Part shown: positions 24,350 through 28,719 of the stretch, in pieces
Numbering within the stretch: the first letter of the stretch is position 1
Layout: each line of letters starts with the position of its first letter
Source: Persicimonas caeni
GTDB lineage: Bacteria > Myxococcota_A > Bradymonadia > Bradymonadales > Bradymonadaceae
Reading direction: 5' to 3'
Length of the DNA stretch: 64,000 bases
Assembly: GCF_006517175.1 (NCBI RefSeq)
Contig: NZ_CP041186.1
Coordinates: 5,421,074-5,485,073, forward strand
Notes under the pieces: model-generated
Seen by the model: only the letters and a program-made list of their open reading frames with translations
Told to the model about the DNA's origin: nothing
Database searches by the model: none
Position numbers and translations under genes: made by a program

Positions 24350-24763
24350 ATGGAAGAAGCACCAAAGAACACCTCCGATGCGACGCCGGACGCCCATCGC
24401 GGCTTCGTGCGTGAAATGAATCGCGGCTTTGCCACTGTTTACGGCTACGGCGGCGCAGCTGTGTTGGCTGTGACCGCGGCCGTGGTGGGCGTGGCGGCGA
24501 CTTTCGACGCCTTGGGCTCCCCGCTGACCTGGATTGGGGCGGTGGTCGCGTTTTTGCTCGGCCTGTTCGTGCTGCGCATCTTCGTGAGTCGCAAAGCCCA
24601 CCGCATGCTCGATCGCATGCGCCAGTACTGTGAGGTCAACGAGGTCACGGTCGACGAGCTTCGCGCCCGCTATACCGGCGAGGGGCTGTACCCGTACTTC
24701 GAGTCGATCTTCGAAGTCGTCGAGCGCCGCCAAAAGCTACGCAACCAACAGGGTTCCGAATAA
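24350..24763 (+). CDS. Small two-helix membrane protein at the head of the ExbB/ExbD operon
   Basis: 137 residues from ATG 24350. Two hydrophobic segments lie at about 32-54 (GYGGAAVLAVTAAVVGVAAT) and 62-82 (LTWIGAVVAFLLGLFVLRIF), followed by a basic cytosolic segment and a helical tail (DELRARYTGEGLYPYFESIF). Its stop overlaps the ExbB start by one base (TAATG). No family recognised. The position suggests an accessory subunit of the ExbBD motor or a local regulator. Confidence 0.7.
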   Translation: MEEAPKNTSDATPDAHRGFVREMNRGFATVYGYGGAAVLAVTAAVVGVAATFDALGSPLTWIGAVVAFLLGLFVLRIFVSRKAHRMLDRMRQYCEVNEVTVDELRARYTGEGLYPYFESIFEVVERRQKLRNQQGSE

Positions 24764-25485
24764 TGACCGAAGTCTACGAATTTCTCGCCAAGGGCGGCTG
24801 GCTGATGATCCCGATTCTGGGCTCGTCGGTCATCGGCCTGGCTTTCTTCTTGGAGCGGCTGTGGGCATTGCAGCGCGCCAAGATCGTGCCGCCGCGTTTT
24901 GTCGAGGTGGTCAAAAAGATGCTGCGCGAACGGCGCTTCGACGAGGCCGAAGGGCTGTGCCAGACCAACGAGGCGCCGATTGCGGCGATGCTCGAGGCGG
25001 GCATCCAGCACGCCGGCTGTGAGCGCGACGTCATCAAAGAGGTGATGCTCGAGAAGGGCGAGCGCGAGATGTTCTTCATGGAGCGCTTCACCAACGCCCT
25101 GGGCTCGATCGCCACCGTGGCGCCCTTGATGGGCCTGCTGGGCACCGTCGTCGGTATGATCAGCGTGTTCCAGCGCGTGGTCAATCAGGCCGGCGCGGGC
25201 GGCGCGGTCGACGCCGGCGCGCTCGCCGCGGGCATCTGGGAGGCGCTGATCACCACCGCCGCCGGGCTGACCGTGGCCATCCCCATCTACCTGGGCCACC
25301 GCTACATCATGGGCCTCATCGACCGCTACGCCGTCGAGATGGAGGATATCAGCCTGACCGCGCTCGACTACCTGGTCCCCGAGGGCCAGGCCGGCCGCGT
25401 GCGCCACACGCCGGTCGAGACGAGCGAAGAAGACGCCGACGCCACGGCGACCAACGGCCAGCTCACCCCTCAGGAGGCTGAATGA
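24763..25485 (+). CDS. MotA/TolQ/ExbB proton-channel family protein
   Basis: 240 residues. Three transmembrane segments: near 10-32 (GGWLMIPILGSSVIGLAFFL), near 107-130 (ALGSIATVAPLMGLLGTVVG) and near 155-180 (WEALITTAAGLTVAIPIYLG), the usual ExbB/TolQ topology with a large cytosolic loop. The conserved TAPLLGLLGTV-like segment and the small-residue TM3 (TTAAGL) line the proton path with ExbD. It forms the inner-membrane motor that powers TonB- or Tol-type work with the next gene, whose start it overlaps by 4 nt. Whether it serves TonB, Tol or another machine cannot be told; no tonB, tolA, tolB or pal is here. The tail is an acidic, Thr-rich extension. Confidence 0.93.
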   Translation: MTEVYEFLAKGGWLMIPILGSSVIGLAFFLERLWALQRAKIVPPRFVEVVKKMLRERRFDEAEGLCQTNEAPIAAMLEAGIQHAGCERDVIKEVMLEKGEREMFFMERFTNALGSIATVAPLMGLLGTVVGMISVFQRVVNQAGAGGAVDAGALAAGIWEALITTAAGLTVAIPIYLGHRYIMGLIDRYAVEMEDISLTALDYLVPEGQAGRVRHTPVETSEEDADATATNGQLTPQEAE

Positions 25486-25910
25486 GCCTGCGACACTCCC
25501 GAAAAGAGCGTCGCGGGGAGGCCAACCTCGAGCTCACCCCGCTCATCGACGTGGTCTTCTTGCTGCTCATCTTCTTTTTGATCACCACGACCTTCTCGAA
25601 GAGCCAGGAAGCCCATATCCCGATCAACCTTCCCAAAGCGGTCAGCGGCGAGAAGGCCACCAGCGGTGACAAGGTCGTCTTGTTCATCACCGCCGAGGGG
25701 TCGGTCGAGCTCAAGGGCGACGAGCCGCTGCAGGGCAACTCCATCGAGGAGAAGCTCGCCGACTTGCGCGAGCGCAAGCCCGAGGCGAACGTGGTCCTCA
25801 AGGGCGACCAAAAGGCGAGTCACGGCAAGGTGATCGAGGTGTTGGACCAGATCAAGCAGACCGGCTTCAAGAAGGTCGATCTGGTGATTTCGCGGCCGCA
25901 GGGCGAATAG
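25482..25910 (+). CDS. ExbD/TolR family protein
   Basis: 142 residues. A basic cytosolic N-terminus leads into the single transmembrane helix with the essential proton-carrying Asp23 (LTPLIDVVFLLLIFFLITTT). The periplasmic domain follows (VVLFITAEGSVELKGDEPLQ, then ANVVLKGDQKASHGKVIEVL, then FKKVDLVIS), a typical ExbD/TolR fold. Normal family length. Starts in an ATGA overlap with the ExbB-like gene, so the two are co-translated partners. Confidence 0.94.
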   Translation: MSLRHSRKERRGEANLELTPLIDVVFLLLIFFLITTTFSKSQEAHIPINLPKAVSGEKATSGDKVVLFITAEGSVELKGDEPLQGNSIEEKLADLRERKPEANVVLKGDQKASHGKVIEVLDQIKQTGFKKVDLVISRPQGE

Positions 25911-26503: not shown

Positions 26504-26541
26504 TCGAGTGATTGAGAAGTAGAAAGCCAAGGATGGCTGTT

Positions 26542-28719
26542 ATGTCTGCGACGACACGAAGTCTGACTCGCCGCCCGCAAACCATCGAGGCGAGCTGGCC
26601 GACCGGCCTGGCGATGCTCGGTGCACTCCTGTACGTGGTCGGCTACGTGGGCAATCCCAGCCTTCCGCTTCCCATCAACATCGCAGCTGCCGTGGTCCTG
26701 CTGGGCGTGTGTGTCTGGTCGGGTTGGCGTGCGTGGAGCCTGCGCGGCGCCGACAAGAGCGTGGCGTTCCAGCTCGAGCGGTCGGTATTGTACGTGACGA
26801 CCGCCTTTGTGCTCGTGCGCTCGCTGTACGGCTTCGGCGTCGACACCTACCCGCTCGTCTACCTGCTGCTCGCCTTTTTGGTGACCTTCCAGGAGCGACA
26901 GGCCGCCATCGGCGCGGTCGTCGCCGCGCTGGTGCTCGAGTGGGGCTCGCAACTTTTGGGCACCTCGGCCGGCGCCGCGGAGCTGAGCGCCGGGTTCGAG
27001 CTGCAACAACAGCTCGACTGGGCCTCGCTGACCACGCGCACCGCGTTTATCGGGCTGTTCGGCTTTTTGTCCTACGGGGTCCACGGCACCGAGGTGCTCG
27101 AGCGGCGTCGCCGCCACCGCCGCGAGGTCGAAGAGGAGCGCGAGAAGATGCTCCGTCAGGCCCGCGAGTACCGGCTGCTCAACTCCGGGCGGGTAGACGC
27201 GGCCGCCGGCGACCGCACCCAGGCCGAGGAGATGGCCGTCTACGACGCCGTCGAGGCCGTCCAGCACACCACCTACGTGAGCCTGTCGCTGCTCAAGACG
27301 GCGCTGCAGTGTCATACCTGCGTGCTCTTGTGGTTCGACGTGCGCGGCGAGAACCTGCACATCAAGGAGCTCGTCAGCGACAGCGACGGCATCGTCGAGG
27401 GCGATATCAAGCCGGCCAAGGGCGTCATCGGCGGCATCTCGCGGCGGCGCGAGCCGGTCAACCTCGAGAACCTGCGCAATGGGTTTCGCGGCATCCCGTA
27501 TTACCGCGACCCGCAGGCCATCAAGCACTTTTTGGGCGTGCCCGTCATCGAGAACGGCCACCTGCGCGGGGTGCTCTGCGCCGACCGCAAAGGGGGCATG
27601 CCGTTCTCGTCGACCGACGTCAACGTCGCCGAGGAGGCGGCCGCCTACATTTTGCGCGCGGTCGAAAACGAGCGCATGTTCACCAGCATCGAGCGCACCA
27701 AATTCGAGCTGGGGCGCTTTTTCGAGGCGAGCCGCCGGCTCAACGGCGTGCTCACCCCGCAGGACGTCTACGAGGTGGCGCTCGAGAGCATCGCCGGCAT
27801 CGTCGAGTACGACTTCGCCGCGATCACCGTCTTCGACGAAGCCGACAACCTGCACCGCATCGAGGCGCTCGACCACACTGGTGCCTTCGGCGTCGACGTC
27901 GAAGACTGGCAGGGCAAGACCTTCGGCGAGAATAGCGGCCTGGTGGCGATGGTCGTCAAAAACTGCCACTACCTTCCCTACGGCGGCCAGGTGCGCGAGT
28001 CCGACCCGGTCATCTTCACCCGCGACGAGCGCCTCGACGCGGTGCGCAGCATGCTCGTCTTGCCGTTGATCGCCCACGACGAGCCCATCGGCACGCTCGT
28101 CATCTGCCACAAGGAGGCCGGCCAATTCGGCTCCGAGCGCCGCGAGATGCTCGAGGTCGTGGGCAACCAGGTGGCCATCAGCCTGCAAAACGCCCGGCTG
28201 TACGCTCAGATGGAGGAGATGGCCACGACCGACGGGCTCACGGGGCTCGCCAACCATCGCAGCTTCCAGTCGAAGCTCGACGAAGTCATCGCCCGTCACC
28301 GCCGCACCGAAGAGCCGTTCGGCCTGATCCTGACCGACATCGACCACTTCAAGTCGGTCAACGACACCTACGGCCACCCGGTGGGCGACGAGGTGTTGCG
28401 TCAGGTCTCGCGGGTCTTCAAGGAGTCGTTGCGCGAGGTCGACGTGCCGTGTCGCTACGGCGGCGAGGAGTTCGCCATCATCCTCGAGGACACCGACCGC
28501 AAGGGGGCGATGACCATCGCCAACCGGCTGCGCGAGTCGGTCGCGGCGCTGGAATTTCAGTCAGATCAGGGGCCTTTCCAATGTACGATCAGCATGGGGG
28601 TGACGATCTGGCCGACCGACGAGCGTGACAAGCAGCCGCTCATCGACCTGACCGACCAGGCGCTGTACTACTCGAAGGAGCATGGGCGGAATCGGGTGAC
28701 GTCGGCCGAGGAGCTTTGA
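26542..28719 (+). CDS. Membrane GAF-GAF-GGDEF diguanylate cyclase
   Basis: 725 residues. ATG 26542 is preferred because AAGGA lies about 8 bp upstream; an in-frame ATG at 26533 overlaps that site. Several hydrophobic segments occupy the first ~180 residues, followed by a basic coiled coil (VLERRRRHRREVEEERE), two GAF-like domains (about 225-385 and 395-555) and a GGDEF domain (about 560-725). The active-site signature is GGEEF at 640-644. An RxxD inhibitory site (REVD) lies just upstream of it, so product feedback is expected. TDIDHFKSVNDTYGHPVGDE carries the metal/nucleotide-binding residues. It makes c-di-GMP from GTP in response to a GAF ligand or membrane signal. 38 bp after the FtsB-like gene, same strand, possibly co-transcribed. 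Confidence 0.93.
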   Translation: MSATTRSLTRRPQTIEASWPTGLAMLGALLYVVGYVGNPSLPLPINIAAAVVLLGVCVWSGWRAWSLRGADKSVAFQLERSVLYVTTAFVLVRSLYGFGVDTYPLVYLLLAFLVTFQERQAAIGAVVAALVLEWGSQLLGTSAGAAELSAGFELQQQLDWASLTTRTAFIGLFGFLSYGVHGTEVLERRRRHRREVEEEREKMLRQAREYRLLNSGRVDAAAGDRTQAEEMAVYDAVEAVQHTTYVSLSLLKTALQCHTCVLLWFDVRGENLHIKELVSDSDGIVEGDIKPAKGVIGGISRRREPVNLENLRNGFRGIPYYRDPQAIKHFLGVPVIENGHLRGVLCADRKGGMPFSSTDVNVAEEAAAYILRAVENERMFTSIERTKFELGRFFEASRRLNGVLTPQDVYEVALESIAGIVEYDFAAITVFDEADNLHRIEALDHTGAFGVDVEDWQGKTFGENSGLVAMVVKNCHYLPYGGQVRESDPVIFTRDERLDAVRSMLVLPLIAHDEPIGTLVICHKEAGQFGSERREMLEVVGNQVAISLQNARLYAQMEEMATTDGLTGLANHRSFQSKLDEVIARHRRTEEPFGLILTDIDHFKSVNDTYGHPVGDEVLRQVSRVFKESLREVDVPCRYGGEEFAIILEDTDRKGAMTIANRLRESVAALEFQSDQGPFQCTISMGVTIWPTDERDKQPLIDLTDQALYYSKEHGRNRVTSAEEL

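Follow-up and report, generated by a model that had tools for sequence, protein, structure and literature searches.

The Tol system acts at the division septum, as in E. coli; how septal constriction and FtsQLB activation are powered and how they work mechanically are, to our knowledge, still open questions. In Myxococcus xanthus, dmxA forms an operon with ftsB, an organisation conserved in related species and published in 2024 (PMC11255338). According to the passages of that source on DmxA, the protein combines a membrane domain of six helices with two GAF domains and a GGDEF domain, arrives late at the division site, makes a burst of c-di-GMP there and sets the symmetry of the daughter cells (motility), and deletion of dmxA gives no defect in growth or cell length (PMC11255338).

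Gene content of the locus and other motors of the genome

The window, the whole stretch of 64,000 nucleotides that was analysed, contains five co-oriented genes encoding a two-helix membrane protein (TM2), an ExbB, an ExbD, an FtsB-like protein and a diguanylate cyclase. Its host, Persicimonas caeni, is a predatory bacterium with a genome of 8,047,206 bp in a single contig. The features of the region are:

23306..24028, minus strand: divergent gene whose C-terminus is weakly cold-shock-like, often found beside the motor genes
24350..24763, plus strand: TM2, two-helix membrane protein of 137 aa, without a Pfam match over cut-off
24763..25485, plus strand: ExbB-type proton-channel subunit of the ftsB-linked subfamily (PF01618, MotA_ExbB, 97.9 bits, cut-off 22.9)
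25482..25910, plus strand: ExbD-type stator subunit (PF02472, ExbD, 107.1 bits, cut-off 25.4)
25988..26503, plus strand: FtsB-like protein, whole gene (DivIC 48.7 bits, cut-off 28.9)
25988..26257, plus strand: FtsB part, residues 1-90, with one transmembrane helix, a coiled coil and the motif ER.AR....ARPGE
26267..26491, plus strand: predicted C-terminal periplasmic domain of the FtsB protein, ExbD/TolR-like, about residues 94-168
26533..28719, plus strand: DmxA-like diguanylate cyclase with a membrane region, two GAF domains, a GGEEF active site and an RxxD I-site
29131..30516, plus strand: conserved PhoH/PIN ATPase gene downstream of the cyclase gene

TM2 and ExbB overlap by 1 nt and ExbB and ExbD by 4 nt, and 77 bp separate ExbD from ftsB. 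With the ATG at 26542 as start codon, 38 bp lie between ftsB and the cyclase gene; the ATG at 26533, in the same frame, is an alternative start. The earlier note had described five co-oriented genes with these overlaps and gaps, and all of them are present at the coordinates listed above. Its remark that tonB, tolB and pal are missing nearby agrees with the absence of TonB_C, TolB_N and Pal matches from the window; among the matches listed, the nearest TonB_C match lies ~52 kb outside it. A two-copy tandem repeat with a period of 52 is found just 3' of the cyclase gene (28752-28856), and the N-terminal part of the divergent gene, ~165 aa, belongs to no known family.

The window ExbB and ExbD show MotA_ExbB and ExbD domains with the channel residues intact. 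In ExbB, the channel-helix motifs GLLGT..GM and TTAAGL are conserved and T128, T164 and T165 are invariant; ExbD has the transmembrane Asp (PLID23), and P20-D23 are invariant in 14 relatives. Neither protein reaches an NCBIfam equivalog cut-off, and the best models, TolQ and TolR, score far below theirs. These best models favour reading the window motor as the Tol-Pal of this organism, recruited to division as in E. coli, which is contradicted by a separate TolQ-TolR-(TolA-like)-TolB-Pal operon at 7.330-7.334 Mb, with an ExbB-type TolQ, TolR, TolB_N and Pal over cut-off. The TolQ of this operon groups with E. coli TolQ in the ExbB tree and the window ExbB does not, and this reading, which is extremely improbable, was rejected because the separate operon is complete. 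A separate Tol-Pal would leave the window ExbBD free for another role. Two further ExbBD sets, at 2.915 and 7.624 Mb, are linked to tonB, and three TonB_C genes over cut-off, at 2.35, 2.78 and 3.37 Mb, have no linked ExbB. These three proteins are possible partners of the window ExbBD in an uptake role.

TM2 is predicted by AF2 to be a helical hairpin (mean pLDDT 77). No Pfam family was found for it, and its best PDB profile match, a SUMO chain, shows no individually passing stretch; a SUMO-like identity was discarded and the match put down to chance. In relatives, TM2 homologues adjoin ExbB even if the motor is not beside ftsB: most family genomes have one next to the motor genes, as do the stand-alone clusters and families f2, f3 and f6, and f5 shows a similar small membrane protein in the same place. 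TM2 thus follows ExbBD more faithfully than FtsB does, and it may be an accessory subunit of the motor.

FtsB and its C-terminal extension

The profile of the FtsB-like protein matches the solved FtsB chains 8bh1 (E-value 6.5e-11), 8hhf (3.3e-7) and 6h9n over residues 6-93, and no other protein of the genome exceeds the DivIC cut-off. The next match, a weak one, sits between mraW-like and ftsI-like genes and by this position is FtsL. The protein scores 34.4 bits against a cut-off of 101 for the NCBIfam FtsB equivalog, a strict model, so its identity as FtsB rests on the other tests. By these tests, the hybrid is a true FtsB, the only one of the genome and vertically kept. Its transmembrane helix (residues 4-22) does not contain an Asp; the possibility that it is a second ExbD was rejected on this ground, which leaves an FtsB with an ExbD domain. 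No SHLS-type motif was seen by eye in the protein, and a TonB or TolA identity is unsupported for that reason.

The extension was modelled with AF2 at a pLDDT of ~93, with the order beta-beta-beta-alpha-beta-alpha-beta. In a Foldseek search against the PDB, the seven best matches are all periplasmic domains of ExbD or TolR: the best one has an E-value of 3e-4 and a TM-score of 0.79 on the target, over 71 alignment columns of a 72-residue target, and the first protein of another kind appears at E 0.06. With hhalign, the whole FtsB alignment matches ExbD (p 6.3e-6), and the extension alone matches the linked ExbDs (p 1.2e-6 and 6.7e-7) and the TonB-type ExbD (p 3.1e-6). For unrelated alignments p was at least ~0.3, and with 20 column shuffles the probabilities were at most 6.3%. 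The alignments of TolR (p 0.024) and of Agl-like ExbD (p 0.0077) score weakly; in sequence, the extension is thus linked to ExbD proper, although the fold match includes TolR. Since the p-values for linked and TonB-type ExbDs are similar, hhalign gave no answer on descent from the adjoining exbD. The structure match and the profile comparison agree in bearing out the ExbD/TolR-like extension that the earlier note had proposed, and in the predicted model the C-terminal ~72 residues of FtsB are an ExbD/TolR periplasmic fold. All 20 FtsBs of the family have this extension, and it was found at none of the 60 FtsB loci from other families; in the search of the phylum, FtsB matches outside the family stop near position 95-114 (plain FtsB).

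The extension might act alone, away from the ExbBD motor, as a module for dimerisation or peptidoglycan contact like that of TolR. Besides ExbD, the fold also matches TolR (5by4 and 2jwk), a coupling of the periplasmic TolR dimer to peptidoglycan has been described (PMC12583513), and extended FtsB occurs in genomes with an unlinked motor. Nevertheless, the motor subfamily is found somewhere in every genome with an extended FtsB that was examined, and an origin beside exbD suggests a common partner, which makes independent action quite unlikely.

Distribution of the motor and cyclase genes in Myxococcota

The family sample contains 21 genomes, and 20 of them show the extended FtsB; the remaining genome is 77% complete. 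ExbB-ExbD is immediately 5' of ftsB on the same strand in 15 of the 20, with the 4-nt ExbB-ExbD overlap in most of these and a short gap between ExbD and ftsB. In G008 (L043:9138-13346), ExbB-ExbD is inverted and lies convergent just behind the cyclase gene, still beside ftsB-cyclase. Four of the 20 (G005, G006, G007 and G015) have the extended FtsB and the motor elsewhere. Every family genome examined retains the linked motor subfamily, these four and G018 among them, and the cyclase gene follows FtsB in 19 of 19 loci where the contig permits the check.

The search of the phylum covered 284 genomes and found FtsB in 200; an alignment-based scan of genome contigs found the relatives, and a scan with the single protein gave no matches. 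The 60 FtsB loci outside the family were picked non-randomly, for spread over families. In 11 of them, which belong to nine other Myxococcota families (f3, f4, f6, f9, f11, f19, f29, f34 and f38), an ExbB gene precedes ftsB on the same strand at a distance of <0.9 kb, with roughly 40-50% protein identity. By a rough estimate, based on 2 to 10 ExbB genes per genome and genomes of 4 to 9 Mb, well under one such case is expected by chance. ExbD is also present in 10 of the 11 loci; in the exception, L132 (L132:5550-6531, in G115, a class relative), ftsB follows ExbB directly, ExbD is undetectable and there is no room for one. The conservation of gene order in relatives, which the earlier note had proposed to check, thus extends over 15 of 20 family genomes and into other families. 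The sister family f2 shows a plain FtsB and the motor elsewhere.

A cyclase of the same type is located downstream of ftsB in 28 of the 60 loci; in L139 (L139:4505-6536, G154) it is divergent from ftsB. The window cyclase shows two GAF domains and GGDEF (162.5 bits) in Pfam, and an N-terminal transmembrane region. The RxxD I-site is present in every family sequence that spans the site, and the R-to-E spacing of 11 is that of R615 and E626 in M. xanthus DmxA, as numbered in the source (PMC11255338). Simple hydropathy gives three clear helices in the window cyclase and three to six in relatives (DmxA is reported with six). Compared with the published description of DmxA in domains, sites and position, the window cyclase looks like DmxA. 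The suggestion in the earlier note that the motor is tuned by c-di-GMP finds no support, because loss of DmxA is described in that account as altering motility symmetry and not growth or cell length (PMC11255338); in addition, FtsB-DmxA is found in many Myxococcota without any ExbBD nearby.

The ExbB tree contains 73 rows and its root was not inferred. All linked ExbBs fall on one side of a branch (UFBoot 79, SH-aLRT 99; 80% of bootstrap trees), together with the ExbB of L154, located ~5.5 kb from ftsB; the TolQ, TonB-type and Agl-like ExbBs lie apart from them. Since branch support is moderate and the root was not inferred, a single origin of the linked ExbBs is likely rather than certain.

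Other genes of the region are also kept. The PhoH/PIN ATPase gene follows the DmxA-like cyclase gene in most family genomes and in several other Myxococcota families, and in several genomes the cold-shock-like gene stays with the TM2-ExbB-ExbD module even away from ftsB (L270, L271, L273-L276 and L278). Because this wider synteny is kept, the neighbourhood by itself is weak proof of a functional link. The arrangement could be inherited synteny only, with ExbBD serving an unlinked TonB in uptake or forming an independent TM2-ExbB-ExbD machine: some TonB_C proteins of the genome have no ExbB linked to them, four family genomes as well as f2 and f5 have TM2-ExbB-ExbD as a stand-alone cluster, and the ATPase and cold-shock-like genes are likewise kept in place. 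However, the linkage holds over nine further families at the low identities given above and persists beside the operon after inversion, the ExbD-like domain arose on the same FtsB that exbD adjoins, and in the tree the linked ExbBs are placed apart from TonB-type ExbBs. On balance, inherited synteny without a functional link is somewhat unlikely.

A putative motor of the divisome and its known relatives

The leading reading is a Ton/Tol-type motor linked to the divisome and docked through FtsB, to which we give a probability of roughly 0.45, the coupling itself being inferred. It leads because of the conserved neighbourhood, the lack of a linked tonB, the true FtsB, its ExbD-like domain and the separate Tol-Pal. 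As an evolutionary association, the motor-divisome link has good support, to which the domain on FtsB adds; physical coupling and transfer of force are putative. The earlier note's reading of a motor dedicated to division or envelope constriction is thus supported in part, with the link to division as the leading reading. The four of 20 family genomes that hold the motor away from ftsB, the f2 motor away from a plain FtsB and the FtsB-DmxA loci without a motor all count against a divisome motor, as does the lack in FtsB of a transmembrane Asp and of a visible SHLS-type motif.

In the proposed mechanism, ExbB, ExbD and the accessory TM2 would form a proton-driven stator, whose genes have probably been associated with ftsB and the DmxA-type cyclase gene since early Myxococcota. 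In the family of the window, FtsB would have gained a C-terminal ExbD-like periplasmic domain, which may pair with the periplasmic domain of ExbD or replace it. Either arrangement would dock the FtsQLB complex on the motor. During constriction, the flow of protons could then move or tension the septal complex or the place where it touches peptidoglycan. DmxA would be drawn to this site as an output of its own and produce c-di-GMP late in division. Docking, force transfer and timing are what we infer. A broader proposal, in which Myxococcota have a dedicated PMF-driven divisome motor distinct from Tol-Pal, and the Bradymonadales FtsB is a built-in subunit through which PMF acts directly on the FtsQLB septal switch, is rather doubtful.

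The ftsB-dmxA half of the locus was already known; what is new here is the ancestral link of the motor to ftsB and the chimera of FtsB with an ExbD domain. In the open-licence literature searched, neither ftsB with exbB in Myxococcota nor DivIC with ExbD in an operon is reported, and the chimera is likewise absent from it. If true, the link between proton flow and the switch of the septal synthase would be testable by ordinary genetics, and the repertoire of ExbBD-type motors would widen past TonB, TolA, gliding and vWA partners.

Compared with known systems, the locus shares with M. xanthus ftsB-dmxA the order of ftsB followed by a cyclase gene with membrane, two GAF and GGDEF domains, and an equal spacing of A-site and I-site; the passages of the source on that operon mention neither ExbB/ExbD nor an ExbD-like domain of FtsB, and TolQ is absent from its text (PMC11255338). 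The window FtsB resembles the FtsB/DivIC of FtsQLB in its transmembrane helix, coiled coil, motif and profile match to solved FtsB, and differs in the additional C-terminal ExbD-like domain of ~72 residues. Tol-Pal shares the proton-driven ExbB/TolQ and ExbD/TolR homologues, whereas the window has no TolA, TolB or Pal, its ExbB belongs to a separate subfamily and the linked periplasmic partner would be FtsB. ExbB-ExbD-TonB shares the motor subunits, and the periplasmic domain of E. coli ExbD (8vgd, 8p9r) has the fold nearest to that of the FtsB extension; in contrast, the window has no TonB nearby and its ExbB is of a separate subfamily. The vWA motor-driven transducers are likewise orphan TolQ/ExbB-type motors with partners other than TonB or TolA, assigned by synteny, but those partners are vWA proteins and not FtsB (PMC12204202).
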